Position numbers and translations under genes: made by a program
Part shown: piece after piece, positions 7,192 through 63,639 of the stretch
Numbering within the stretch: position 1 is the first letter of the stretch
How the letters are laid out: every line of letters begins with the position of its first letter
Origin: Bacteroidia bacterium
GTDB lineage: Bacteria > Bacteroidota > Ignavibacteria > SZUA-365
Assembly (NCBI GenBank): GCA_027493955.1
Contig: JAOSJT010000001.1
Coordinates: 2,839,131 to 2,903,130, forward strand
DNA length: 64,000 nucleotides
Direction: 5' to 3'
The notes under the pieces: model-generated
The model's input: only the letters and a program-made list of their open reading frames with translations
What the model was told of the DNA's origin: nothing
The model's database searches: none

Positions 7192-8535
7192 TCACTTTCG
7201 GGTGATCACGATTTCTGTCCGCCGGTTCAAGCGCCGTCCCAGCTCTGTATCGTTCGGAGCTACCGGCTGCGATTTTCCCATGCCCCGGGTGGTGATACGG
7301 TCTGCGCTGACACCTTTGTCCGAAAAAAACTTTTTCACCGCCCGGGCGCGTGCATCGGACAACGCGACATTGTACTCATCGCTCCCGATGAAATCCGTAT
7401 GGCCGCGAATCTCAATGTGCATTCCCTGATATCGTTTCAGCATGGCAAGAATGCGGTTCAGATCCTCGGTATACGTCATGTCGAAGGTAGCGCGATTGAA
7501 GTCGAATAAAATATTATCCAGAACAAATTTTTTATCCACTTCAAGGACGGTGTGCTCCTCCCGCAGTACGACTTCGTTCGCCATATTGCGAATTTCCAGA
7601 TTGATCTTTTCCGGCGGTACTTCCTCCGGTACGCGATAGCGAACGGCGTAGAGGTTCGTGAGACTTTCGCTGAACTCATCGAGGATGGAGCTGAAATCCT
7701 CAATGATGTTGAAGCGTTTTCCTCTTGTCGCATCGGTCATCTGTCTGTATTCGTCTATCAGCGGAGGGGTGATGGCGAAGAGCTTGACGTTCTGTTTGTT
7801 CAGAAAATCAATCATCGTGCGCGTGGTAAATTCCGTTTTCCCGTCCCCCCGGTCGCCTTTCTGATGGAACATGGCGTCGGTGATGAGGATGAAGATACGT
7901 TGTGCTGAAAGGCGAAATTTAAACGACGTGGCTTCGTATAGGGCTTCGAGCGCATTTTCGTTGTCGTCGCCGCCGCCGCCCACTTTGACGCCGTCTATCC
8001 ACGCGATAAAGGTATTGACGTCCTCGGTAAAGTCCTTATACCGGTCGATGCGATCGCTGAAGGAAATGAGGGCAAGACGGTAATCCACACCGCGCGACGC
8101 CAGGCGCCGTGTGAACTCAATGATATTCGCCTTGACTTCGTTCACTTCCTGCTGCATGCTTCCCGTCTGATCGATGATGAAAGCGATATCGACGGGCAGG
8201 CTGTTTTCGGCCGAGATGCGCTCCAGACTTTCGACGCGCATGGGCCTGCTGTCCTGGTAAATGATCAGATCGTTTCTGACCAGATGCGGAAAGTGGTTAT
8301 TGAGAGAGTCCCTTGCGTCGAGAATGACGCTGACCTCGGGATAGCGACTGATGTCTACAGCGCGGATAGATACGTTCACTCGCTGCGGATCCGTCGTATG
8401 CGCGGAAATGATCGTCGCTTTCCGGAGGCTGTCGGCGGCGGGATTATGCGGATCCGCTGCGACTTCCTGAGGAGACGGATGCACCAGGAGGACGAATAAC
8501 AGCGGCGCAAGAACGGAGGAGATGTACTGCATCAT
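7192..8535 (-). CDS. secreted VWA domain protein with C-terminal OmpA peptidoglycan-binding domain
   Basis: A 447-residue envelope protein. Residues 1-27 form a signal peptide. A von Willebrand A domain covers about 115-310, with a MIDAS-like DQTGS at 122-126. An OmpA-like domain at about 335-447 contains LFDFNRATF, the peptidoglycan-binding GHTDFIGSDEYNVALSDARA segment and a terminal NRRTEIVI segment. The fusion would anchor a protein-binding, metal-dependent adhesion domain to the cell wall. It closes the minus-strand GldL/GldM-like cluster, 151 bases after the second barrel gene, where it could play the wall-anchoring part that PorE plays in type IX secretion. That role is inferred from context. 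Confidence 0.85.
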   Translation of the reverse strand: MMQYISSVLAPLLFVLLVHPSPQEVAADPHNPAADSLRKATIISAHTTDPQRVNVSIRAVDISRYPEVSVILDARDSLNNHFPHLVRNDLIIYQDSRPMRVESLERISAENSLPVDIAFIIDQTGSMQQEVNEVKANIIEFTRRLASRGVDYRLALISFSDRIDRYKDFTEDVNTFIAWIDGVKVGGGGDDNENALEALYEATSFKFRLSAQRIFILITDAMFHQKGDRGDGKTEFTTRTMIDFLNKQNVKLFAITPPLIDEYRQMTDATRGKRFNIIEDFSSILDEFSESLTNLYAVRYRVPEEVPPEKINLEIRNMANEVVLREEHTVLEVDKKFVLDNILFDFNRATFDMTYTEDLNRILAMLKRYQGMHIEIRGHTDFIGSDEYNVALSDARARAVKKFFSDKGVSADRITTRGMGKSQPVAPNDTELGRRLNRRTEIVITRK

Positions 8536-8686
8536 ACGTGGGACAGCAAATATCCGATAACATCCACACGGGGGGGTATGTTCCGCATCCGCGGAGCAAC
8601 AGCCAGAAACGATACAGGCGATGGCTCGCGCTCATCGCCTGTACGTTTCGCAATTTACAAACTGTGTATTCGCTTCATACGCGACG

Positions 8687-10405
8687 TCAGAACGCGAAGC
8701 CGAATCTGAGACCGGGCACGATCATTTCATCATGCTCCCATCTCTCGACGTCGCGGAACACGACGCGGGAGTATTTCACTTCCGCGCGCATCCATGCGAA
8801 GATATGCAAATACACCTCGCCCATCAGTCCACCGTTGAAGTACTGCAGTGCCACGCCATAGGTCGTCTTTCCCACATGATCATAGGAGAGACGCGCGAAC
8901 AGATCGAGCGTGCTGTGATCTGCAACGGTACGAACCGAATCGAACACGAGGCCCGGATCCGAACCCGCAGGTGCGAGAGCCGGATCGCGGCGCTGTGCTT
9001 CGATCATTTTCTGATACCCGATACCTGCGGCAAGGCGAAGTCCGCGCAGAGCGAAGCCCAGATCACGCCAGTAATACGCCGTCGCGGTGTTGGCGAGGTA
9101 ATAGAAACGGTTCATGTAAAACGCCTTGCTGGGGTCGTTCGGATCATAGACCGGACTTACCTCGCTGCCGTTGATGATGCGTCCTTCACCGTCCGTGATC
9201 TTCTTTCCGCCGAGCTTCGGCAGTCCGAACGAAACGAATGCGGCCGCGCCGATACCGTCGGCGTCCGAACCCGGAGCACCGGCAGTGTTTGACAATTGCT
9301 TGAAGTATTCACCAGCCGCGCCCCACGTGCCGTTGATGGTCCGGGGTTTGAAGATGGGGAATTCATCCTTGACGCTGATGTCGCCGAAACCAAACGGAAT
9401 GGACGGACCGATCTTGATGCGCTCGGTGTTGGAAGGCTCGTACACGAATAAGGTGTTCCACTGCGCACCGTACAGGAACGGCAGATTCACCCAGTCGTTT
9501 CCGATTTTCAGTTCGAAGCCAGCGCGAATGCGTGAGGGCTGCAGGGCGACGCCGTCAGCGGCGCGCTCATCCGAATCGAGCGTCCACATGAAGCCGCCAC
9601 CGAAGGGGATGCTAATCGTCGCTTCCGCAACATACGGTGCAGGCTTGAGAGCGCCGGTTTCGTCGAGATGCGCATACTGCTCGCGACGCACGACATAGTC
9701 GTACAGATCGGGCGTCAGCACTTCACGCAGATTGCGACGACCGATAATGCGGTAATCGTCAAAATCGGAATTATCCGTGTTGGGCATGAAGCCGGCGGAG
9801 AGGTTTTCGGGATCGTGGGCGCGTGCCTTTTCGATCACGATGCCGATCAGGTTCTCGCTGTCCTTCGGACTCTGAATGATGCGCATACGGGCCTTGCCGG
9901 TGAGCACGCGCTCGGCGATGGTCACTGCTTCGGCATCACGAAGATCGTCGCGGTTGTCGCGGACCTTGCGCATGATTTCGAGAATGGTCGGTTCATCCTG
10001 GATGATCCACTGCGGGAAGTACTTGTTGACGAGTGGATCGAGACTGGTCAGTGCGCGGAGGAGCACGCGAAGGCGGTCGTTTTCGTCCTTATAGTGATCA
10101 ATGGCCATGTCGAGCAGACGCAGGTAGTTCTGCCGGTCATCTTCTCCGGGACGGTGTGAAGCCAATTCGGTGACGAGTCTGTCGCTCCAGGCCATGCGGC
10201 GAAGCATATCTTCTTCGGAATAGTTCGCACTCCGCATGAAGCGCAGTATCTGCTCAACATTCGTGAGTGCATCTCCTGTGTTCTGCGCCTGGGTGAAAGC
10301 AGGTGCGATAAGCGATGCGCAGAAGACCAGGAGCAGGAGCGGGAGAAGTCGGAGTTTCGTCTGCATGCCTTGTGTTTCCGTGCTTGAATATGAAACATTC
10401 TTCAT
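8687..10405 (-). CDS. outer-membrane barrel protein with helical periplasmic N-terminus (cluster OMP2)
   Basis: A 572-residue exported protein that I do not recognise as a named family. A signal peptide ends near AFTQAQ (about residue 41). Residues 45-200 are charged and helical. The remainder has alternating hydrophobic strands and ends in aromatic residues (LRFGFAF), as outer-membrane barrels do. Its last 60 residues align with those of the upstream gene product: QYFNGGLM...AWMRAEVKYS here, QYFAGRMM...SWLRVEAKYS there. The two are therefore paralogous at the barrel end. The ATG at 10405 has an AAAGGGGG ribosome-binding site 7 bases upstream and lies 14 bases from the previous stop. It probably partners the GldL/GldM-like motors. 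Confidence 0.75.
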   Translation of the reverse strand: MKNVSYSSTETQGMQTKLRLLPLLLLVFCASLIAPAFTQAQNTGDALTNVEQILRFMRSANYSEEDMLRRMAWSDRLVTELASHRPGEDDRQNYLRLLDMAIDHYKDENDRLRVLLRALTSLDPLVNKYFPQWIIQDEPTILEIMRKVRDNRDDLRDAEAVTIAERVLTGKARMRIIQSPKDSENLIGIVIEKARAHDPENLSAGFMPNTDNSDFDDYRIIGRRNLREVLTPDLYDYVVRREQYAHLDETGALKPAPYVAEATISIPFGGGFMWTLDSDERAADGVALQPSRIRAGFELKIGNDWVNLPFLYGAQWNTLFVYEPSNTERIKIGPSIPFGFGDISVKDEFPIFKPRTINGTWGAAGEYFKQLSNTAGAPGSDADGIGAAAFVSFGLPKLGGKKITDGEGRIINGSEVSPVYDPNDPSKAFYMNRFYYLANTATAYYWRDLGFALRGLRLAAGIGYQKMIEAQRRDPALAPAGSDPGLVFDSVRTVADHSTLDLFARLSYDHVGKTTYGVALQYFNGGLMGEVYLHIFAWMRAEVKYSRVVFRDVERWEHDEMIVPGLRFGFAF

Positions 10406-10419
10406 GATACCGCCCCCTT

Positions 10420-12459
10420 TCAGTTAAAAATGGAAGGAAGCCCGATGCGCAAGCGGGGCGTGATCATGAAGTAGCTGGTCTCGCTTTCCCACACCTCACG
10501 TGTGCGCAGCAGGAAGGAGTACTTGGCCTCCACGCGGAGCCAGCTCGTCAGTTCGAGAAACGCGTCGGTCATCATGCGTCCGGCAAAATACTGGACGCCA
10601 AGGCCGTAGCGGTTGGACGAACTCAGGTTGATGAAGGACATACGGACGTAAACGTCGAAGTATTCGTCTTCCTTGCCGAGAGTGAACATCTTTCCGACGT
10701 CCTCCGTACGGAATTCGCGGTCGAGCTTTGTCTGACCGACATCAGCCGACGAAACGAGATGATTACGACGGATCTGCATGTATCCACCACCAATGTTCAG
10801 ACGGAAAGCGACGTTGGGATTGATCGCCCTGTCCTTGAACATGATGGGATAGTACACCTGCGCGATGGTGGAGATGTGGAAGAAATCACCGAAGTAATCT
10901 TCATCATCCAATTGTGCCGGACGCTGCGTACTGGTCCGGAGGTGATCATAGGCTTCCTGTCCGTCGAAGTCATTGATGACAAACAGGCTGCCGCCCAAGG
11001 AGAACGGGAAACCGAAGGTAAAATCGAAATCCACGTTATACCCGCCAGCCGAAGAGAGAAGACCCTTTTCGAAGGCGAGAGGACCGGGGAGGTCGGGAGC
11101 GATCATATTCATCGGCAGGACCACACCCACGCTCATCTGGTTCTTATACCCGATGGAGAGCGACGAGATGCCGGTGGACCAGCGCGGAAGGCCGATTTCA
11201 TCGTTGCCGATGGTGTAGCCGAGCTTCCAGTTGGGAGCCAATCCGGATCGTGCCGGTGAGCGGAGTTCGATCTTGTCAAGCGACGCATCGATGGTGACGA
11301 TATCCGCAGGATACACACCGGGGTTGGCGACGACGTCGATAATCTGCGTCAGACCAGCTTCGCGCGCATCGATGACCAACTGTCCCCGCACCTCATATCG
11401 GGTGTCGCTGAGGAAGTTGTACTCGATGTCCGTCCGGTCCATGGTTCCACTTTTCTCGGTGAGCTGGATCGGGAACTTGGTTTTCACTTCGAACTGATCG
11501 GCATTGGCGCCGACGAACTGTATGTTCGTGATTTTCAGCGGACGGTTTTCCGGATTCCGGATGCGCAGCTTCCGAACATCGGGGAAGAACACCGGGATCT
11601 GCTGCTCATAGAATGGCCCGGCGGCGTCATATTGCGGGATCTGGATGGATCCCTCAAGCGTGTCGCGGGTACTCCAGAAATCGCTGAAGCGGCTGGTCGT
11701 TGTTTCCAGCTCACGCTGCGTCATGACGATAAAGGGACCGACCTTGCCGGGCATCCAATCGCCGCGTTCCGGGAGAGGAATGGAGGCCGACTGGCTGCGC
11801 TTGCTCAGAATGTCGTCATACAGATTTTCGTCCGCGAGTTGCAACACACTGATGAGATCGGAACCGGAGATGGTAAAGCCTTTCGCGATCGGTTCGGTGC
11901 TTCCACCGCCGAAGTCGCCCAGGCCGCCTTCACCGTCGGAGTCATCCGTGCCGGTTTCCTCGGGCGGGAGCATTTCCAGTTTTTCGACATACACTTCGAT
12001 GATTTCGAAGGGAGCGATGCCGTACATTTCCTGCTCCTGCGGTGTGGCCTCCACATAGTAGACTTCCACCTTGCGGAGCTGGGCACTGCCTTTACCCTTG
12101 CGGCCCGCGACCTCGAAGGTGCCGTCGAGGCGGTATTCTTCCTCGAACATTCCAAGGTCGTTTGCACGGGCAAAGACCTTGTCGATGCGCTCGTAGTATT
12201 GGCGCAGGGCGTAGCCCTTCACCTGGGTATAGTCATACCCTGTCGTCGCGCTGGCGCGGCGACGGCCGGTGGTCGCACGCGGTTTGTCCTGGGCGGCCGA
12301 CCGGATGATCTGGTTTTTTTCTTGTGCGTCGTTGTACTCCGTCTTCAGCTGGCCCTGTTTCTCCTTCACGGCCTGATCCGCCTGCGCGAAAATCCGTGGG
12401 GAGAAGCAAGCCAGGAGCGCCACAACGAAAAGGGCACGTACAATGAGTTTCTTGCTCAT
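10420..12459 (-). CDS. outer-membrane barrel protein with long periplasmic N-terminal part (cluster OMP1)
   Basis: A 679-residue exported protein of unknown family. The ATG at 12459 has an AGAGGA site 6 bases upstream and opens a clear signal peptide ending FSPRIFAQA; an upstream ATG at 12513 is discounted. A charged helical part is followed by an acidic Gly/Asp-rich linker (DDSDGEGGLGDFGGG), one or two beta-sandwich segments (near VRKLRIRNPENRPLKITN), and a C-terminal half of amphipathic strands ending LRIGLPSIFN. The barrel end is homologous to the next gene product. It lies 66 bases after the GldM-like gene. Where classical T9SS operons have GldN after GldM, this operon has this protein instead. 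Confidence 0.75.
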   Translation of the reverse strand: MSKKLIVRALFVVALLACFSPRIFAQADQAVKEKQGQLKTEYNDAQEKNQIIRSAAQDKPRATTGRRRASATTGYDYTQVKGYALRQYYERIDKVFARANDLGMFEEEYRLDGTFEVAGRKGKGSAQLRKVEVYYVEATPQEQEMYGIAPFEIIEVYVEKLEMLPPEETGTDDSDGEGGLGDFGGGSTEPIAKGFTISGSDLISVLQLADENLYDDILSKRSQSASIPLPERGDWMPGKVGPFIVMTQRELETTTSRFSDFWSTRDTLEGSIQIPQYDAAGPFYEQQIPVFFPDVRKLRIRNPENRPLKITNIQFVGANADQFEVKTKFPIQLTEKSGTMDRTDIEYNFLSDTRYEVRGQLVIDAREAGLTQIIDVVANPGVYPADIVTIDASLDKIELRSPARSGLAPNWKLGYTIGNDEIGLPRWSTGISSLSIGYKNQMSVGVVLPMNMIAPDLPGPLAFEKGLLSSAGGYNVDFDFTFGFPFSLGGSLFVINDFDGQEAYDHLRTSTQRPAQLDDEDYFGDFFHISTIAQVYYPIMFKDRAINPNVAFRLNIGGGYMQIRRNHLVSSADVGQTKLDREFRTEDVGKMFTLGKEDEYFDVYVRMSFINLSSSNRYGLGVQYFAGRMMTDAFLELTSWLRVEAKYSFLLRTREVWESETSYFMITPRLRIGLPSIFN

Positions 12460-12525
12460 GGAATATCCTCTGCTATCGAATTGATCGTTCAGCTTCGCGA
12501 ATATCGTGGTCATGCGATTCGCCGT

Positions 12526-14130
12526 TTACTCGGAGTACAACACAACGGTGTACTTCTCGTTGATGGTACCGTAACGGATGGTGATGGTAGCATCTGTTCC
12601 GTCGCGCTTGACCTTGCCCTTCAGGAAGAACTTGACGAGACTGCCCTGCTCCTGCCCGGTATTCGGGTTGGTACGCGGCATGACCTGAACCTCATCCAGC
12701 AGATCCTGACCGTCATCCGATTCCGCTTCGATGCGAATCTCGGACTGTTGTATGTTGCGGATATTTCCGCTCACACAGCGACCGCAGCGCGCGGCGACGA
12801 ACTGGAAGACGTTGTTGATCGGATACTCGCCGCCGTTCGCGAAGGACTGCGATCCGATACGATCGATAGGAGCTGAAATGTTAAAGACGAATTCGGACGA
12901 TGTGAGATTCGTGGAAGTGGAGTCCACCAGAACCTGATAAGGACGATTCCGATACTTGGACTTGACAATCATGGTCTTGCCCATCGCGTCATTCGGAACC
13001 TTGTATTTGATGATGTTGCCTGTACCGCTTTCGACTTCCTTGCCGTCAAGTTCGATTTCGTAGGTATAGCTACCGACGTCTTCGAGACCGCCGACATTGA
13101 TATACATTTCGAACATCTCGCCGACAAAGGCACCCTGCGGCCGTCTGCGGCTCAGGAAGGGCTCTTTGACCACGACCTCGAAGCTGATCGGGCGGGAGAC
13201 GCTCTTCGCCCCGGCATTACGCTTGTCGCGGGCTTCCACTGTCACGCGACGCGTACCAGCCTCATTAAATGTGCCGGACCATACCCACTTACCGCGCTCG
13301 GGATCGGTGTTATAGAATGGATTTGAACGGTTCAGCGGGTCCATGGCGACACCGCCGCCGACGACGGGCATGGATGAAATCTTGTCCACCGTCGTGCCAC
13401 GCACCTTGATTTCATTGAAGGTGGGGAAACCGACGGCCGTCACAATTTGATCCGCCTGAATCTGGAGTTGATCGTATTCTTCCGAAACAACTTCCACGAT
13501 GAACTTATCGGGACTCAGATTCTCTGATTGACGAACAAATTCCTCGATGGGTACACCTTCGAGTTCAGGATCGGAATCGAGAGCGCTGCGAATTTCCTTG
13601 CGGGAGAATTCAAGAGAACCGACCTTCACCTTCGCCGTCCCCTCATCAATATCGGGCTGCAGCGAAACACGGTCTGTTCCGGCCTGGACCCAGAGCTCGA
13701 ACAGTCCGGGGCCAAGATCCGCCTTCCAGGTAAAACGATACAGACGCTCACCGGTGGAGGCATGCAGTGTGGAGTCCTGAATCTGATCGGGGTACTTGAG
13801 GGTCTGAACCTCGTTACCATCCTTGTACACTTTCACTTCCGGCGGGGTGGTGACTTCGTCGCTGTCGCCGAGGCCCTTGACGGAAATGGTAAATCTGCGC
13901 TCTTCGTTGACTTTGAGCTGGTTGTCGCCCGCAGCCGCGACAGCGGGCATGTTCTTGAGCAGCTCAAGAATGATGCGTCGGTTTTTCTCTTCCAGAGCAC
14001 GCTGCTGGGCCATCAACTCGGCTTCGGCGTCATCGCGTTCCACGATGATGATCAGAAGCTCGCAGATAACCGCCAGATACAGGAAGAAATAAACCTGATA
14101 TTTTTTATAGTGATCACCGGAACTTGCCAT
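12526..14130 (-). CDS. GldM/PorM-like periplasmic motor shaft protein (copy 1)
   Basis: A 534-residue protein with one N-terminal membrane helix (residues 13-31, ending ERDD) and a long periplasmic part of beta-sandwich repeats. This is the layout of GldM/PorM, which is turned by the proton-driven GldL ring. The helix segment FLYLAVICELL resembles the GldM LMYLVFIAML-type helix and the paralogue encoded at 15235-16746; a Glu (E24) sits within the helix. Another shared block is PFL...GLEDVGSYTYEIELDG...SGTG...PNDAMGK. A CGRC pair lies near residue 450. An AAGGAG site sits 7 bases before the ATG, and the gene starts 37 bases after its GldL-like partner. Family assignment is by architecture and context, not a database hit. 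Confidence 0.72.
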   Translation of the reverse strand: MASSGDHYKKYQVYFFLYLAVICELLIIIVERDDAEAELMAQQRALEEKNRRIILELLKNMPAVAAAGDNQLKVNEERRFTISVKGLGDSDEVTTPPEVKVYKDGNEVQTLKYPDQIQDSTLHASTGERLYRFTWKADLGPGLFELWVQAGTDRVSLQPDIDEGTAKVKVGSLEFSRKEIRSALDSDPELEGVPIEEFVRQSENLSPDKFIVEVVSEEYDQLQIQADQIVTAVGFPTFNEIKVRGTTVDKISSMPVVGGGVAMDPLNRSNPFYNTDPERGKWVWSGTFNEAGTRRVTVEARDKRNAGAKSVSRPISFEVVVKEPFLSRRRPQGAFVGEMFEMYINVGGLEDVGSYTYEIELDGKEVESGTGNIIKYKVPNDAMGKTMIVKSKYRNRPYQVLVDSTSTNLTSSEFVFNISAPIDRIGSQSFANGGEYPINNVFQFVAARCGRCVSGNIRNIQQSEIRIEAESDDGQDLLDEVQVMPRTNPNTGQEQGSLVKFFLKGKVKRDGTDATITIRYGTINEKYTVVLYSE

Positions 14131-14166
14131 TGTTGGTCTCCTTGGGAAAAATGAATCCTCCGCCTG

Positions 14167-15009
14167 TTACTGGCGAAGACCTGTTTCCGTGCGAACGCTG
14201 GTCTCGAGTTCCGCTTTGAGTGCGTCGAGCTTGCGTTCGACCTCTGCGAGAGAAAGCTGCTTTCCGGGAAGCCCCTGACCCTGGCCTTCTTCTTCCTTTT
14301 CTTCCTTCTCGTACCAAGTGGTCATACCCAGCAGCAAAAGCACGGTAATTTCAACCACAATGGCGATAACGATAAGATCAGGTTGATGCGCGGTCATGAA
14401 CTTCACACCACGGAGACCGATGTTGAGAATCAGGAAGGCCGTTCCGATGAAGGCGATAGCGGTGATGTTGTTTTTGTAGTCGGGAATAAAATCGTTGTGC
14501 ATGTACATGCCGAAGCCCTGACGGACGCTCCGCTCTTTCTGCAACCAGTATTTCGGCTTCTTCATGAGCGAGTCACCGAATTTGCTTGAAATACCGGTGG
14601 CCTTCAGAATGGAACCCACGAAGGCATGCAAGCTGCCCCTGAACAGGAACAGACCGATGGGGGTAAAAAAGAACACTACGACGAAAAATGAAATCGTAAT
14701 CACCGTCGACACTGCGAACAGGTTGATGATGAAGGTGGAGGTACCGATTTTGAACACATACTCGGTATTGAACAGATTTGCCACCATGCCACCTTGTGAC
14801 GGGCGGATCTGCTCAAGTTCGGCGTGCGTGAGCTGGCTCAGATCTCGGTCTTTACCTTCGTCACGGAGTTTCATTTTCATTTCATCGAGCGTCATCAGGT
14901 CGGACGAAGCCTCACCGCCCGCGGCAAGGGCAGGTGCGGCAAACACCGAAAACATGGCTACCACCAGGGCGCCAAGCATCAGATGGCGAAGAAATCCACT
15001 ACTCTTCAT
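14167..15009 (-). CDS. GldL-like inner-membrane motor protein (copy 1, with N-terminal extension)
   Basis: A 280-residue membrane protein. Residues 1-30 resemble a signal peptide or first helix, and another hydrophobic stretch lies at 92-122. A GldL-like core follows: two helices at about 182-204 and 210-233, the second with a membrane-embedded glutamate (E220, in IAIVVEITVLLLLG), then a charged coiled coil (251-272). In GldL the equivalent helix-2 glutamate is essential for proton flow; here the role is inferred. The extra N-terminal 150 residues are not part of standard GldL. The start has TAGGAGG 8 bases upstream. A 226-base gap from the preceding gene may contain an internal promoter; TTTGACA is seen on the minus strand at 15205-15211. 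Confidence 0.68.
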   Translation of the reverse strand: MKSSGFLRHLMLGALVVAMFSVFAAPALAAGGEASSDLMTLDEMKMKLRDEGKDRDLSQLTHAELEQIRPSQGGMVANLFNTEYVFKIGTSTFIINLFAVSTVITISFFVVVFFFTPIGLFLFRGSLHAFVGSILKATGISSKFGDSLMKKPKYWLQKERSVRQGFGMYMHNDFIPDYKNNITAIAFIGTAFLILNIGLRGVKFMTAHQPDLIVIAIVVEITVLLLLGMTTWYEKEEKEEEGQGQGLPGKQLSLAEVERKLDALKAELETSVRTETGLRQ

Positions 15010-15234
15010 ACGGATGGCCTCCTAACAAGACATTGTAAAATCGCGTGCCGCGGAGAAGCGGGTAACGATCTGTTATTGAGTTTTCATGCTGAGTATGTGA
15101 TGGATGTCGGCTCCGGCTTGCTGCACTGCTCCGGGGATTCGGATCAACGTGCTGAGGGTGGACGAAAGCCACATCACATAAAGGTCGTACATTAAACATA
15201 TATGTGTCAAATCCGGCAGACATCTCCGTTGCTC

Positions 15235-16746
15235 CTAGCGTGTCAACCGTATTGCATGCTGAAAAATAGCGCCCGCGGCACGGATGGTAACGAGCACCTG
15301 CTCGCCGCCGGCGGCAACCGCGGCACTGTTCTCGAGTTCGAACTCGAATTCGCCCTTCCGTATCATGGACACACTGGCTTCAAACCGGCGGTTACCGGAT
15401 GCGGTAATTTCGACTGCGACATCCGATATTTTATCTATCGGCTGCTCGCCCATGAAACGTGGGTGCGAATACCGCGATGCCGTGAAGCGGAATGCGGCGT
15501 TGGAAGGTGCGCGCTCCGGCAGCGACGCGGCGATGCGCGTGGGAGGGACCTCCACCGGCAGTGAGATACGGGATATTCCGGATCGGTGTGTCTGCGTTGA
15601 TAAATAGCGATACAGACGTCCCATATACCGGACCTCCAGCACCAATCTCTTTCCGACATACGATGTCGGAATCCGCCAGCGACCGACCGGACCGGTGCCG
15701 CTCGCTTTTATCACCGTTTCGTTTACGCCGGCTATCTCGTACAGTGACCAGGTGTAGAGCGCTTCCTGCTCAAGTCCGCGAACCTGCAAATTCACGGACA
15801 TTTCCTCGCCCGCATACAGGTGCAGCGGCGGCTGCTCGAAAAGAAAGGGCTGCGTTCCGTTGAGGGTGAACTGCGTCCGGGCGATATCCTTCCCGCCTGC
15901 GCCTCTGTCAAGTCGCGCCTCGATTACCACGGTGTCGGGTAGGCTCCGGACCACACCGGACCACCGGTACTCCACCTGCCGGTCCGTCCTGGTCACTTTC
16001 GTGAGCGTCCCGCTGCCGCTGACAATCGAGACATGCGGTGCAGACCATCCGAGGTTCGCAGTGATGGTATTCTGTTCCTCGAAGCCTATTGCGGAGGAGA
16101 TGGAGGTTTGTGAGGATTGAATCCGCAGCGCTTCAAGCGTTTTCGGCCGCGCGAGAGAGGTGTCTATCACCTGAATGACAACGGTGCCGGTTGCATGCTC
16201 AAGCGCTTTGACCTGAACGTGGGATATGTCCGACGTATCAAACTTGAGCCCGCGATATTCAATACTGCCGCCTTCCGCCCGCTGAATACGTCTGGCTCCG
16301 GCTTTGAGATTTACGGTGTAGGTCCCCGTCCTCGGGAATCTGCCCGTCAGCGGGAAGTACACAACCCTGTCGTACACATTGCCATACCCTGTGCGTTCTC
16401 CGATCTGCAGGAGATCCGGAGAGGTGAGCAGGCTGTCACGTACGATAGAGTGGAGAGTCATTGTTACCTGGTCGTCCGGGTCAATGTCGTGAACGAAAAT
16501 CTTCGTGCTGAAGGGCGGGACCGCGGTGCTGACGATGCCGCTGCGGTCGTCGGCAGAGACATAGTAGCGCACCGTATCGTTTTCGGGTACGAGAGGCAAT
16601 GGGGGAATGAACTGCGCAACAAGATGTTCGTGCCGCTGTGCATGGGTGCTTGTCGCATGATCGCGCTCGCGGGAGATAACCGCAAAGCCCACGATAGCCG
16701 TGAGGTACAGGATGAGGAAGATATCGACACGCCGACGTCTTGCCAC
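15235..16746 (-). CDS. GldM/PorM-like periplasmic motor shaft protein (copy 2)
   Basis: A 503-residue paralogue of the protein at 12526-14130. It has a very basic start (ARRRR), one membrane helix at about 8-24 with the same ILYLTAI...SRERD pattern, then periplasmic beta-sandwich domains. The block PFLFEQPPLHLYAGEEMSVN...RGLEQEALYTW...ASGTGPVG...PTSYVGKR matches copy 1. The helix has glycine where copy 1 has glutamate, and the CGRC pair is missing. The start must be GTG 16746: it lies two codons after an in-frame TGA and is preceded by GAGGGG at an 8-base spacing. It follows its GldL-like partner by 47 bases. Confidence 0.7.
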   Translation of the reverse strand: MARRRRVDIFLILYLTAIVGFAVISRERDHATSTHAQRHEHLVAQFIPPLPLVPENDTVRYYVSADDRSGIVSTAVPPFSTKIFVHDIDPDDQVTMTLHSIVRDSLLTSPDLLQIGERTGYGNVYDRVVYFPLTGRFPRTGTYTVNLKAGARRIQRAEGGSIEYRGLKFDTSDISHVQVKALEHATGTVVIQVIDTSLARPKTLEALRIQSSQTSISSAIGFEEQNTITANLGWSAPHVSIVSGSGTLTKVTRTDRQVEYRWSGVVRSLPDTVVIEARLDRGAGGKDIARTQFTLNGTQPFLFEQPPLHLYAGEEMSVNLQVRGLEQEALYTWSLYEIAGVNETVIKASGTGPVGRWRIPTSYVGKRLVLEVRYMGRLYRYLSTQTHRSGISRISLPVEVPPTRIAASLPERAPSNAAFRFTASRYSHPRFMGEQPIDKISDVAVEITASGNRRFEASVSMIRKGEFEFELENSAAVAAGGEQVLVTIRAAGAIFQHAIRLTR

Positions 16747-16793
16747 ACGTCACACCCCTCGACCCGACAGGCGGTCAGTATAAAAACGCTCGA

Positions 16794-17561
16794 TCATGCC
16801 TCCGCCCCCGCTTGCGCATCTGCCTGGTTGAGCAAACGCCGTGTCTGTTGCGCCATCTGCTGCTGCTGCTGCAGGAGATTGTGCAGCAGCGCCTGGGTCG
16901 CCTCGGCCTGCTCGCGGAACAGGGCGTTGGTTTGATCCATTCGGTCCAGATACTTTCTGGCGTTATCGCTGTTTATTCTCGAATAATTCTCTGTCAGCTT
17001 CGTCAGCAAGACATCCTGCCGGATGTCTGTTTGCGAGATGAGACGAAACAGATCGGAAACCGCGGTCGTCATTTCACGAATGGAGCTGTTAATCGAGGAG
17101 ATCAGTGTGTCAGACAACCCTGTCGGGGTGACGGCGGTGCCGGGCTCGTCGTTCCTGCTGAACGCGGTGACCGTCGCAAGCAACAGCAGAAACAGCGCTT
17201 CGATCGCCAATCCCCCGAGCGCGAAGAGAAGATCATACCCGCTCAGATACAGCCCCACGCCAACGAGCACGAGCATGGCGCCGAAATACACCAACCCCTG
17301 AATGGTGTTGTAGTAGTACGTACTCACGATTTCTTCAAAAAACACACGTGTCCCGAGCTTCATGCCGAGACTGCTCTCAAATCGCATTCTTCTGCCGTCC
17401 CCGAGCTGTATATTCGTTGCGCTACGGCAGACCTTCCAACATTCGAAGAGTGTCCGGATTTCCGAGAAATTCTTCACCCGGCGATCATGAAAAAACTCAT
17501 GAAGGAGCCGACGTCCTTCGATGCTTTCCAGATCCTTGATTGTTTCCGAGGTGTTGAACAC
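16794..17561 (-). CDS. GldL-like inner-membrane motor protein (copy 2)
   Basis: A 255-residue protein with a cytoplasmic N-terminal domain (1-80, including C41 and C45), two membrane helices at about 87-107 and 111-134, and a long C-terminal coiled coil (150-250) rich in Gln. Helix 2 reads ALGGLAIEALFLLLLA, very close to the GldL helix 2 that carries the proton-channel glutamate; here it is E121. This is the clearest GldL match in the cluster. The start is GTG 17561, the only candidate after an in-frame stop further upstream. It is the first gene of the seven-gene minus-strand cluster and has a palindrome-rich upstream region. Confidence 0.72.
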   Translation of the reverse strand: MFNTSETIKDLESIEGRRLLHEFFHDRRVKNFSEIRTLFECWKVCRSATNIQLGDGRRMRFESSLGMKLGTRVFFEEIVSTYYYNTIQGLVYFGAMLVLVGVGLYLSGYDLLFALGGLAIEALFLLLLATVTAFSRNDEPGTAVTPTGLSDTLISSINSSIREMTTAVSDLFRLISQTDIRQDVLLTKLTENYSRINSDNARKYLDRMDQTNALFREQAEATQALLHNLLQQQQQMAQQTRRLLNQADAQAGAEA

Positions 17562-19328: not shown

Positions 19329-22313
19329 TCAGCGTACGATGTTCAAGGGGACGGTCCGGAGCAATCCGGGACTCTCAGCACGCAGGTAATACGTCCCTGA
19401 AGGTATTTCCGGCAGATACAGCACACGAAGCGTGCGACCCGGAAGCAGTTCGACCGAACCGAAGTCCGCACGCTGCCTTCCGAGCATATCGAAGAGCTTC
19501 AGGCGGACAGCGCGCTGCGAAGCGACATCGAGAGAAACAGCAACGTCACGCCGCCCTTCGAGCGGATTGGGATGTACGCCAAGGCGGAGGAGCTCTGACC
19601 GGGGGAGCGCAATGTCCGTTACAGAGGTCGGATCCCAGGCTGTGGCCAGCGTATCCCACATTTTTCGCGCAGCGGGCACCGACGCGATAATCTCGGCAAG
19701 CGATTCGCCCGCAATCAGGGCATAACCGACCACAACCGAATCCCCTGCTGCAACATCCCCGACAGCATTCCCGATGGTGAAGGACACGTCGGTGATTTGT
19801 GAAACCGGTCGGACTATACCGCGCGACAGCGCTTTCCACTTCTCTGCTTTGCTAAAACCGTTATAAATACCGATGGTCAGCGAATCGTCGTTATCCCTGT
19901 TGTTGATGCCCCAGTAGGTCACCGGATATTCCACGGACAGCGGCAGCACACCGATGCGGGTCTGTGTTTTGGGTGAGCCCGTGCTGTCGAAGCAAATGGC
20001 CATCGCGAGGGTGTCGATGTATTTCGCGAAATCCGATTGGGAATTCGGGCCGATATCCCAATCGAAGAACAGCCCGGTATGAAGCCGTTCATGCATGTTC
20101 GAAGAAAGGTTCTGCACGTGGTATTTCAGGAACACCATGTTTCGAAGTTCCGGACGCGTGAATGCGAAGCTTTCGAGTCGGATACGCGTCTGCAGACGAT
20201 TGGCAAGCGTCGCACCGAGGTCCTCGAACACGCCGTCGCCTTCCTGCTCGGCCCGTGCACCCGGGGTGTCCATGTTGTACAGGTACTCCGCCTGCATATC
20301 CCGCGCCTGCGCACTGGCCCCCGAACGCGCGACATCCACGACGAGTGGTGTGTTGTTGATCACGGCACCCACCATGAACGCCCCCTCAAACAACACACTT
20401 TCCATTCCTTTATAGCGAAATCCGCTGCCGGTGACACCCGACATGTCGTCGTAGCCGATGTTGCCGTCGCTGCTGAGTGTAACCTGTATGTCGTTGATGT
20501 CGTGATCGCGGTAGCTCGGCTGCTGAATAAAAAATACGCCGCCCTGATCAACGTATTCGCCGTCGGTTACGTGGTAGATGAGATCCACCTGATTGTTCGG
20601 CGCATACACGTCTTCCAGTGTCAGGACGTACGGTGTCGCATCATTGGACACCTCTCCCATTGTCGGTATCTGTCCGGCGAGAAATTCTCCCTGCTCAATG
20701 GTCACACGTGTATTCGGGGAGCTCAGACGAATGACGGCATTGGTGGTCGGTGCGAGATAATTCACCCAGCGCATACGTATGGCGAGTTTTTCTCCACGTT
20801 CGGCGATGCCGTTGCCGTTGCCGTATTCGGTGTCGCTCCATGACCAATCAACCAGCCGGACACCAGGCCACTGTTCCGTGAGCGCCCGATAGGCATTGAC
20901 TCGTCCGCGGCCGATTTTTCCTTTGAGCCAGCGATTTTGCAGATAATCGATGGTATCCGATGTAACCCGAATTTGCTCGCGCACCTGCTCGGGTGTGAAT
21001 TGCGGGAAGACGCTTTTTACCAACCCCGCCAAGCCGGCAACCAAGGGAGAAGCCATGGAAGTGCCTGTGTATGCGGTGTAGCTGGTGTTGCTCTGACTGA
21101 TGCTGCTCACGATATCCACACCCGGTGCCGAGACGTTCACCCAGGAGCCATAGGTCGAAGATGAATGGACTTTGTCCCCCTGTCCGACGTTGGCGACGGA
21201 GAGGACGTTGGGATAGGCACCCGGAGTGGACACGGTTTCATCGCCGGAATTTCCGGCGGCGGCAATAACGACCGCGCCTTTGGAGATGGCGTACGCAATG
21301 CGCTCTTCCTGACTCAACATGTACCCGCCGCCTCCCCAGCTGCAGTTGATGACATGCGCTCCGTTATCCGCCGCATACACGATGCCGTCGTACCCTCGCA
21401 TGATGGAGGTTGAGTAACGATCAGGGGCACATTTGATGGGCATAATGCGGCAATTGAAGGCCAGGCCTGCAATCCCCTTTCCGTTATCACCGCGTGCGGC
21501 GGCAATGCCCGCGACATGCGTGCCATGCGGATTGCCGGTCGACGTGGGATTGGGATCCCTGTCGTAATAGCTGCCTCCCGAAAGACCGGTTGGGCCGACA
21601 AAATCAATCCCAATAATATCGTCTACATACCCATTGCCGTCGTTGTCTACGCTGTCAATATCAGCTGTGGTGAATTTTCCATCCTGGTCGATATCCTCGC
21701 CGGGATTGACCCGGATATTGTCCGCAAGGTCTTCGTGTGTCCATCGTACACCGCTATCCACGATGGCGATAACCACGTCGGGACTTCCGGTACTGATATC
21801 CCATGCCTCGCGGGCCCATACGGCATAGAGTCCGTACTGCTGAGTGAACATCGGATCGTTGGGTACGAGACACAGCTTCTGCACGAGATCGGGCTCGGCG
21901 TACTCCACATCAGGCAAGCGGCAGAACGCGCGAGCCACGTCGATGGGATGCGCTTCGTCGTCGAATTCCACGTAGTACAATCGCTGCAGTGCGATTTCAC
22001 TGCCGTCCGCCCTGAAACGGGAAATATGACCCGGATACGCCCGCGTCATCCTGAAAACGCCGTATCGCGCAAGCAGGGGATTGATCGCTGCCACCGAGGC
22101 ATAATCATTTTCCAGCAGATGTTCCGCTTCACGACGAAATTTTACGAGGATGCGCCCGGGAACAACCTCGGCATCGGAGGGAATCCGGTCCAACGCTTCG
22201 ATCGCGTTGGCCGGTGCTTTGGCGCGTGCGGTGAGATTCTGTGCAGAGCTCGTGGCGACAACGCCGCATACGAGCCACAGGGCACAATAGAGCAGCAGCT
22301 TGTGCATATGCAT
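19329..22313 (-). CDS. secreted S8 subtilisin-like protease with T9SS sorting domain
   Basis: A protease of about 994 residues exported by Sec (signal peptide LLLYCALWLVCGVVATSSAQ) and then by type IX secretion. An N-terminal fervidolysin-like propeptide (VPGRILVKFR) precedes the catalytic domain, which shows the full triad: Asp in AIVDSGVRWTHEDL, His in NPHGTHVAGIAAARG and Ser in YTGTSMASPLVAGL. A long beta-rich middle follows. The last 80 residues (GVHPNPLEG...LKLFDMLGRQ...GTYYLRAES) are a type A C-terminal sorting domain. ATG 22313 (MHMHK) was chosen because the signal peptide follows directly; ATG 22307 is equally possible. It would digest extracellular protein at the cell surface. Confidence 0.92.
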   Translation of the reverse strand: MHMHKLLLYCALWLVCGVVATSSAQNLTARAKAPANAIEALDRIPSDAEVVPGRILVKFRREAEHLLENDYASVAAINPLLARYGVFRMTRAYPGHISRFRADGSEIALQRLYYVEFDDEAHPIDVARAFCRLPDVEYAEPDLVQKLCLVPNDPMFTQQYGLYAVWAREAWDISTGSPDVVIAIVDSGVRWTHEDLADNIRVNPGEDIDQDGKFTTADIDSVDNDGNGYVDDIIGIDFVGPTGLSGGSYYDRDPNPTSTGNPHGTHVAGIAAARGDNGKGIAGLAFNCRIMPIKCAPDRYSTSIMRGYDGIVYAADNGAHVINCSWGGGGYMLSQEERIAYAISKGAVVIAAAGNSGDETVSTPGAYPNVLSVANVGQGDKVHSSSTYGSWVNVSAPGVDIVSSISQSNTSYTAYTGTSMASPLVAGLAGLVKSVFPQFTPEQVREQIRVTSDTIDYLQNRWLKGKIGRGRVNAYRALTEQWPGVRLVDWSWSDTEYGNGNGIAERGEKLAIRMRWVNYLAPTTNAVIRLSSPNTRVTIEQGEFLAGQIPTMGEVSNDATPYVLTLEDVYAPNNQVDLIYHVTDGEYVDQGGVFFIQQPSYRDHDINDIQVTLSSDGNIGYDDMSGVTGSGFRYKGMESVLFEGAFMVGAVINNTPLVVDVARSGASAQARDMQAEYLYNMDTPGARAEQEGDGVFEDLGATLANRLQTRIRLESFAFTRPELRNMVFLKYHVQNLSSNMHERLHTGLFFDWDIGPNSQSDFAKYIDTLAMAICFDSTGSPKTQTRIGVLPLSVEYPVTYWGINNRDNDDSLTIGIYNGFSKAEKWKALSRGIVRPVSQITDVSFTIGNAVGDVAAGDSVVVGYALIAGESLAEIIASVPAARKMWDTLATAWDPTSVTDIALPRSELLRLGVHPNPLEGRRDVAVSLDVASQRAVRLKLFDMLGRQRADFGSVELLPGRTLRVLYLPEIPSGTYYLRAESPGLLRTVPLNIVR

Positions 22314-22595
22314 CACTTGTTTTTCGTGGATAAAGAACCGCGGAGGCATCGGGCCGGGCGGAGTTCATCAGTTTTCGAAGATACGAAATTCCATGAGCAA
22401 AATCCGTTGAACTCCGGCGAAAGCAGGCGTACGTCAATATGATACCATTGCGCAACGTCCATCATTCGTTGGAATCGCGGAGGTTCACGGGATGACGAGC
22501 GATGACGCTTGAATATGGGCCGGAAATGCCGTCAGGCCTCCCGGACGGCCGAGGTGCATCCGAACTGGGGCGATGCACATATCGTCCGGCGGGGA

Positions 22596-61790: not shown

Positions 61791-61945
61791 ACTACTCTCT
61801 CTCCCGCTCTACGGGGCTGCGCCAACCGGTGCAGCCCCGTTTTGCGTTGCGTGACTCTCGGTACACCCCTTCCTCCTCTGCACCGGGTCAGTGATGCGGC
61901 CTGCAACCATGAGCGGTTTTTCCGTCATATCCACGCCGAAAAGAC

Positions 61946-61974
61946 TTGCACGTGATCCGATAATCCGCTACTAT
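61946..61974 (+). promoter_or_regulatory. candidate sigma70-type promoter of VWA/T9SS gene
   Basis: TTGCAC (61946-61951) and TACTAT (61969-61974) with a 17-base spacer, 34 bases before the ATG at 62008. Confidence 0.4.
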
Positions 61975-62007
61975 TCGGTGTTTCAGACGCACAGCCCGGA
62001 TTTTCTG

Positions 62008-63639
62008 ATGAAATCATTTCTTCTGCGTTTTTCGGTCATGATTCTGCTCGTTCTGCCGAATGTGCCCGGCAATAGTCATGCACAGTTACGAACCGTCATC
62101 GATTCCGTGAATGTCACTGGTTTTCCTGAGGTGGTTCTGCAATTACGTGTCATGCAGGGAGACAACAGCGTCATGGGCCTGCGCTTGCAGGACTTCACCC
62201 TCCTTGAAAACGGGCTGGTGCTGCCCATCACCGGCGGCTACTGCGAAGATACCGTAACCCGCGGTCCCGTGTCGGTTCTCCTCGTCATAGACGCCAGCGG
62301 GAGCATGGGCGGCTGGCCACTGGGTACCATGGCCATCAACGATGCCAAGCGGGCTGCGAAAAATTTCATCGATCGCCTCTCCACAGAGGACGAAGCCGCT
62401 CTGATGGTATTCAACAGCGAGATATACTATACACAAAGCTGGACCACAAATTGGCCGCTCCTCAAATCGCGCATTGATAATATCGATCCCTGGGGTTCAA
62501 CGCGCCTATGGGACGCCGTTCTCGCCGGTGTCAATGTCACCCGCTCCCGCAGCAAGAAGAAGGTGATGATTGTGCTTACCGACGGCGAGGACACGGGATC
62601 GACAACGCCCTTCAGTACTGCCCGCGACGCCGCGGTTGCTGACGACGTTATGGTCTATACCATCGGGCTCGGCAATAATATCGAAGAGAATCGTCTTCGT
62701 CAGCTTGCACAGGATACCGGCGGAAAATTCTTCAAGGCACCGCAGGCGTCCGATCTCGATCAGATTTACGCGGAAATCAATCTCTCTCTCATCAGCACTG
62801 GCATCTGCGAGCTCCGCTATTTCTCGCCCATTGATTGCTGGAACGGCGACGAGGTAACGGTGGATGTGCGCGCCAACACCACGCAGGGTGTGGCCGCCGG
62901 CACGGCACGTTACACTCTGCCGTACGACACGTCCACATTCTCCTACGTCACCCTCTCGATGGAGCGCGAGTACGCCGTGCAAAGCGGCAAACGCCTTACC
63001 GTACCTCTCGAGCTGTCTCGCGTCTCGGCCAATCGCGCCCCGTCCGTTTTCGATTTCAGTGTAAACTTCGACGGCAATCTGCTGACCTTCGTAGACGCGC
63101 GACCCACGGGCCTCAGCACCGGCTATATCGTGACAACCACTCCTACGCAGCGCGGCGTTGACGTCAAACTGCAAGGGGCCACACCGCTCACAGAAGCCGG
63201 GACACTGCTCGAGCTCACGTTTGAAGCCCGGCCGACGTTCTACAGCGGCAAAACGGAGATCTCCGTATCGCCGCCGGCCGTGCAACAGTTCTGCACCGAG
63301 GCATCCTCGTTCAACGGATTGATAACCGTGAGCGGCACATGCGAGCATGCTCTCGGCGCGCCGGCTCCAACAACTCCGCAAGTGCGGCTCATTGCCGTAT
63401 CACCCAATCCGTTCAATCCGGAAGCGCGCATCCGCTACACCGTCTCGGAGTATGCGGACATCACACTCGAACTCCACGACGTGCTCGGTCGCCGGTTGCG
63501 GACTCTCTATAACGGTCCCGTCAATGCCGGCGAGCATCAGTATATCTTGGACGCAACGGATTTCAGCGGAGGCGTTTACATGATCGCCATATCCGCCGGG
63601 AGCAGCCGGGATTATCGCCGTGTCATGCTGGTCAAATAG
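62008..63639 (+). CDS. secreted VWA domain protein with T9SS C-terminal sorting domain
   Basis: A 543-residue protein. Signal peptide 1-26 (ending NSHAQ). A von Willebrand A domain at about 88-270 has a perfect MIDAS (DASGS, 95-99) and later ATD-like VLTDGEDTGS. A cohesin-like/beta-sandwich region follows (FDFSVNFDGNLLTFVDARPTG). The protein ends with a type A T9SS sorting domain (AVSPNPFNPEARIRYTVSE...LHDVLGRRLRTL...GVYMIAISAG). Likely a surface adhesion or binding protein. ATG 62008 was chosen from the signal peptide. Confidence 0.88.
   Translation: MKSFLLRFSVMILLVLPNVPGNSHAQLRTVIDSVNVTGFPEVVLQLRVMQGDNSVMGLRLQDFTLLENGLVLPITGGYCEDTVTRGPVSVLLVIDASGSMGGWPLGTMAINDAKRAAKNFIDRLSTEDEAALMVFNSEIYYTQSWTTNWPLLKSRIDNIDPWGSTRLWDAVLAGVNVTRSRSKKKVMIVLTDGEDTGSTTPFSTARDAAVADDVMVYTIGLGNNIEENRLRQLAQDTGGKFFKAPQASDLDQIYAEINLSLISTGICELRYFSPIDCWNGDEVTVDVRANTTQGVAAGTARYTLPYDTSTFSYVTLSMEREYAVQSGKRLTVPLELSRVSANRAPSVFDFSVNFDGNLLTFVDARPTGLSTGYIVTTTPTQRGVDVKLQGATPLTEAGTLLELTFEARPTFYSGKTEISVSPPAVQQFCTEASSFNGLITVSGTCEHALGAPAPTTPQVRLIAVSPNPFNPEARIRYTVSEYADITLELHDVLGRRLRTLYNGPVNAGEHQYILDATDFSGGVYMIAISAGSSRDYRRVMLVK

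Follow-up and report, generated by a model that had tools for sequence, protein, structure and literature searches.

Gene content of the locus

The window analysed here, a stretch of 64,000 nucleotides, carries seven open reading frames between positions 7192 and 17561, all on the minus strand and with coordinates that agree with those of an earlier note made from the sequence. We refer to these genes as A to G, starting from the high-numbered end. The intergenic gaps from A to G are, in order, 47, 225, 36, 12, 14 and 151 bp, with the widest lying between B and C (225 bp) and between F and G (151 bp) and the others being short. Scans for sigma-70 promoters and terminators returned about the same number of candidates as in shuffled sequence. 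A description of this cluster was not found in the open library of literature that was searched.

A (16794-17561; 255 aa) encodes a putative GldL-like ring subunit with two membrane helices and a glutamate (E121) in the second, assigned by an A-family profile match to GldL and by alignment. B (15235-16746; 503 aa) encodes a putative GldM-like axle with a single N-terminal membrane helix, assigned by a B-family profile match to GldM and by homology to D. A second putative ring subunit, C (14167-15009; 280 aa), has a signal sequence and three membrane helices with a glutamate (E220) in the last, and was placed by alignment and by its membership of the superfamily of A. A second putative axle, D (12526-14130; 534 aa), has a conserved membrane helix containing E24 followed by tandem beta domains in an AlphaFold2 model. 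E (10420-12513; 697 aa) is an exported protein, conserved across the class of Bacteroidota to which the window belongs, with a C-terminal barrel homologous to that of F by hhalign, and F (8687-10405; 572 aa) is an exported protein with a helical N-terminal part and a predicted 14-strand outer-membrane barrel (AlphaFold2, VIA-align). Finally, G (7192-8535; 447 aa) combines a VWA domain with a C-terminal OmpA-type peptidoglycan-binding domain recognised by Pfam, and its gene also adjoins F in other genomes of the class. By inspection, C, E, F and G have signal-type N-termini and A, B and D have a cytoplasmic start.

Searches with Pfam and NCBIfam recognised G only, as VWA (E 1e-12) plus OmpA (E 4e-21), which agrees with the VWA-OmpA protein of the earlier note. 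A to F gave no convincing match to either collection, only chance-level ones, and the description of these proteins as GldL- or GldM-like therefore depends on profile-profile links that are clear of reversed-alignment controls.

Putative ring subunits A and C

Canonical gldKLMN operons from Bacteroidota genomes served as the reference for family comparisons by hhalign, in which reversed alignments were the controls. The A family matched canonical GldL across the membrane hairpin with an E-value of 4e-6 (reversed control 0.02). C matched the A family with an E-value of 9e-7, and C alone had no profile link to canonical GldL, so that its connection runs through A only. The A-type, C-type and further proteins of the class form one superfamily, with E-values between subfamilies down to 4e-18. 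Both A and C contain a two-helix hairpin with a glutamate in the second helix (E121 and E220, respectively) in register with E49 of GldL, and in a core alignment of 42 sequences that included canonical GldL this TM2 glutamate was the single invariant column. E49 is an essential residue, and the key acid of the GldLM motor sits on GldL (PMC8986121). In the family to which the window belongs, A lacks the basic residue of the first helix, and in one genome the glutamate as well. An A-type protein outside the 42-sequence alignment (L038:12628-13407) has a glutamine at the TM2 glutamate position and is possibly an inactive ring subunit.

The NCBIfam model for GldL (TIGR03513), which recognised real GldL in a control, matched neither A nor C nor anything else in the same genome, and searches of PDB sequences with the A and C profiles returned nothing meaningful. 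C-type proteins were also considered as members of the MotA/ExbB family, an assignment that was rejected as they had no Pfam match. A third GldL-core protein is encoded elsewhere in the same genome (L106:8293-11521, near position 4123009 of contig C1); the gene directly after it encodes an AAA_16 ATPase, none of the adjacent genes was recognised as GldM-like, and the same pairing occurs in two further loci (L109, L118).

Putative axles B and D

The homology between B and D is clear (hhalign E 9e-37). The B family matched canonical GldM with an E-value of 3e-5 (reversed control 0.006), a weaker link than that between A and GldL, and D alone had no profile link to canonical GldM, being connected via B only. 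The GldM model TIGR03517 found no match in B, in D, in the rest of the genome or in the sampled genomes of the class. An AlphaFold2 model of D from 27 sequences (mean pLDDT 85.6) showed a single long helix (residues 7-59) followed by tandem beta domains, and the same architecture of one N-terminal membrane helix and then beta-rich domains is predicted for B from its homology to D. Comparison of the D model to the PDB by Foldseek and VIA-align gave match lists filled by generic Ig tandems. GldM has a helical D1 domain spanning residues 32-232 (PMC5790014); in the D model this domain is absent and the long helix runs directly into the beta domains. A short GldM from another Bacteroidota family (L084) likewise has no room for D1.

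The axle helix is highly conserved in the D family; it includes a glutamate, which is E24 in the D protein of the window, and an ERD motif comes after this residue. Of 22 D-type sequences compared, 20 have the in-helix glutamate, which is missing at that place in B-type proteins and canonical GldM. Together, E24 of D and E220 of C place acids on both ring and axle, unlike GldLM, where the key acid is on GldL. We infer that both acids carry protons. The likeness to GldL and GldM proposed in the earlier note is compatible with the predicted folds, with the TM2 glutamate in register and the helix of D leading into beta domains, and is supported by the profile matches of A and B.

Predicted outer-membrane barrels E and F and wall anchor G

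The earlier note had described two large exported proteins with related barrel ends, and E and F are indeed homologous at their barrel ends (hhalign E 1e-16). An AlphaFold2 model of F from 16 sequences (pLDDT 69.7) showed an N-terminal part made of helices and a barrel of about 14 strands. VIA-align superposed the barrel on OmpG with a Z-score of 15.8 and, with a Z-score of 13.3, on one chain (presumably PorV) of 6h3i, a structure of the T9SS translocon. Since OmpG outscores the 6h3i chain, the match of the F barrel to the translocon is generic. GldK, GldN and PorP were considered as identities for E and F and rejected, profile similarity being nil. The barrels of E and F and the OmpA domain of G supply the outer-membrane partners and wall anchor that had been proposed for the cluster.

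Gene order and distribution across the class

The order A-B-C-D-E-F-G, or whatever part of it fits on the contig, recurs in relatives (L035-L041), so the gene order is kept in other genomes and the arrangement is not due to chance. Some members of the family (L042-L046) have additional C-D-type genes elsewhere, with E and F not beside them. In the rest of the class D-E-F are found together, usually with G, and C is unlinked (L048-L054); the A-B pair stands alone in L125, L136-L139, L141, L142 and L145; and in a distant family (f14) an L-M-E-F order occurs twice (L143, L144). The tandem arrangement of both pairs is limited to the family and order of the window.

A total of 61 genomes of the class were sampled, with absences based on profile searches. 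F was found in 32/61 and D in 32/61, both of them in 30/61, the exceptions being G026 and G035, in both of which D-like genes turned up locally, G012, whose assembly is 74% complete, and G023, in which C and D are both present. Almost the same genomes contain C, with C, D and F together in about 30/61 genomes, and A was found in 25/61, every one of which has F. Genomes of family f12 have SprA and C-D-E-F without A. Across 296 sampled genomes of Bacteroidota, F turned up in 33, all of them from this class. C, D and F are all missing from 27/61 genomes (e.g., G029, G021 and G053), and 26 of these 27 have SprA with A, C, D and F undetected. This indicates that the module is not required for every type IX secretion system (T9SS) in the class. 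A broad GldL core profile, in a search that had no canonical genome as control, gave no convincing match in 19 genomes of the class that lack the module.

The co-occurrence of C, D and F even where they are unlinked, with A-B nested within that set, indicates that the two pairs are old paralogues that were brought together. In the tree, B is split from D (support 81/91) and both sides hold sequences from other families of the class. A recent tandem duplication of one motor was rejected, as B and D fall into different clades, and each of these includes sequences of other families or from elsewhere in the class. The earlier note's duplicated motor therefore holds as two non-identical GldL/GldM-type pairs and fails as a simple duplication of one operon, since the parts lie apart elsewhere and B and D are separate clades.

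Type IX secretion components in the class

GldK and GldN, together with GldL and GldM, are regarded as the fixed core of the T9SS. SprA was detected in the genome of the window and in 60/61 class genomes, the exception being 68% complete. GldN was found in 0/61 class genomes by model search; the model recognises real GldN and misses a probable GldN in L084, so that very divergent ring proteins may have escaped the search. Of 12 class genomes tested for GldK with a model that recognised real members, none had a match above the cut-off; there were generic FGE-type matches only, with none whatever in four genomes, and the best E-value in the class was 2e-24, whereas Flavobacterium gave 6e-181 and family f33 about 1e-42. 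The earlier note had reported GldK and GldN missing from the cluster; they are absent beside it and went unrecognised by profile elsewhere in the genome. The genome search for a separate canonical gldKLMN/sprA locus returned SprA, with GldL, GldM, GldN and GldK not recognised by profile. With SprA nearly universal and neither ring protein recognised where searched for, the class is a natural test of the purpose of the ring. Export reportedly depends on a conserved cysteine of GldK (PMC12635249).

In three genomes the gene directly downstream of a C-type gene, separated from it by no more than some 20-75 bp, encodes a PorU/PorU2-like C25 peptidase (L108:7466-14527, L110:8301-15227, L119:8589-15644; E about 1e-60, under the curated cut-offs). 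These genomes come from two families and may represent one event. The A-B pair adjoins large proteins with a T9SS sorting tail (CTD) in L137 and L139. Because the genomes are few and related and sorting-tail proteins are common, these neighbourhoods are suggestive only.

A putative motor module and its alternatives

Restricted to one lineage, the module is related to the GldLM motor and has outer-membrane partners of its own. Built on what was observed of gene content, homology, conservation and co-occurrence, on the presence of SprA and on the lack of recognisable GldN and GldM, our best explanation is an envelope-spanning machine whose inner-membrane part would consist of two proton-driven motors of the GldLM type. 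Rings of A and C would surround the membrane helices of the axles B and D. The beta-domain chains of these axles would span the periplasm and act upon the barrels E and F in the outer membrane, and G would tie the assembly to peptidoglycan. E, F and G may substitute for the GldK/GldN ring. C-D-E-F forms the core conserved in the class, and A-B, present only in core-bearing genomes, a second, old paralogous motor.

The chances are roughly even that this is an alternative T9SS-linked motor module, energising the SprA translocon in place of the standard GldL/GldM motor and GldK/GldN ring. A link to the T9SS is favoured by the missing GldK and GldN and by the C-type gene beside a PorU-like gene, and weakened by the SprA-bearing genomes that lack the cluster. 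The dissimilarity of E and F to the GldK, GldN and PorP profiles, the lack of D1 in the predicted structure of D, the connection of C and D to the canonical families through A and B only, and the limited reach of the GldK search (12 class genomes) and of the GldN model (which misses the L084 protein) also speak against such a replacement. More specifically, and with less than an even chance, the class may run its T9SS on two distinct GldLM-type motors, one of them with both ring and axle acids, coupled to E/F and G instead of GldK/GldN.

The machine could instead be separate from the T9SS, as a GldLM-type complex with the task of moving or stabilising either the outer membrane or some structure on the cell surface (in gliding, in a Tol-Pal-like role or in sensing), with the T9SS powered otherwise. 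The 26 class genomes in which the T9SS runs without the module would fit, as would the lack of a convincing GldL core match in the 19 of them that were searched, the Pal/OmpA type of the G anchor, the ExbB-like helix count of C and the membrane acid in the axle of D. We regard this as rather unlikely, however, given that the sole relatives of known function power the T9SS and gliding, that a C-type gene adjoins a PorU-like gene in three genomes, and that no recognisable GldLM or GldKN is left in this genome to power the T9SS. A division of labour, with A-B as the T9SS motor and C-D-E-F-G as a different machine clustered with it by happenstance, would account for the matches of A and B, and not of C and D, to canonical families, for the families that keep A-B alone and D-E-F-G elsewhere, and for the large CTD-bearing proteins beside A-B. 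It is, however, improbable when set against the f12 genomes with SprA and C-D-E-F but no A, the PorU-like neighbour belonging to C rather than A, and the loss from A in the family of the window of the first-helix basic residue and, in one genome, of the glutamate too. That unrelated membrane and Ig-type proteins merely resemble GldL and GldM is very improbable and was already disfavoured: A to F lack curated-model matches, and the shapes in question, Ig tandems and two-helix proteins, are common, but the order within the pairs, the invariant glutamate, the profile E-values far better than those of reversed controls and the kept gene order argue against chance or artefact.

Comparison with known systems

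The cluster shares with GldL/GldM (PorL/PorM) of gldKLMN an L-then-M pair, a two-helix ring subunit with a glutamate in the second helix, a single-helix axle with periplasmic beta domains and distant sequence homology. It differs in having two such pairs, in the signal sequence and extra helix of C, in the membrane glutamate of D and predicted lack of helical D1, and in carrying the barrels E and F and the anchor G instead of GldK and GldN. A gldKLM operon in family f33 of Bacteroidota (L084, L085) also has a GldM-type axle too short for D1, but it includes a protein of GldK type (E 1e-51 with Kcan), and the canonical GldL profile finds its ring subunit with an E-value of 1e-7.

The ion-driven 5:2 motors ExbB/ExbD, TolQ/TolR and MotA/MotB have a pentameric ring around a dimeric axle. 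In common with them, a peptidoglycan-binding OmpA domain is encoded alongside (G), C has three membrane helices as in ExbB, and D has an acid in the axle helix, as do MotB and ExbD. In contrast to these motors, the proteins of the cluster have no Pfam match to the motor families, the ring acid is placed as in GldL and the periplasmic part is predicted to consist of tandem beta domains. The kinship of GldLM with the MotAB/ExbBD motors is unsettled (PMC9389320); a motor whose ring and axle each carry an acid, if true, would stand between them. G shares an OmpA-type domain with PorE and has a VWA domain in place of PorE's other parts. With regard to PorV/PorP, the F barrel superposes on the translocon chain as described above, and neither E nor F has a sequence match to PorP. 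The module may show how an alternative version of the T9SS is powered.

Two other genes in the window encode proteins with tail-like features. A subtilase (19329-22349) has a C-terminus that resembles a T9SS sorting tail by eye with no Pfam match to the tail, and a VWA-cohesin protein (61891-63639) has a sub-threshold match to Por_Secre_tail (E 1e-4).
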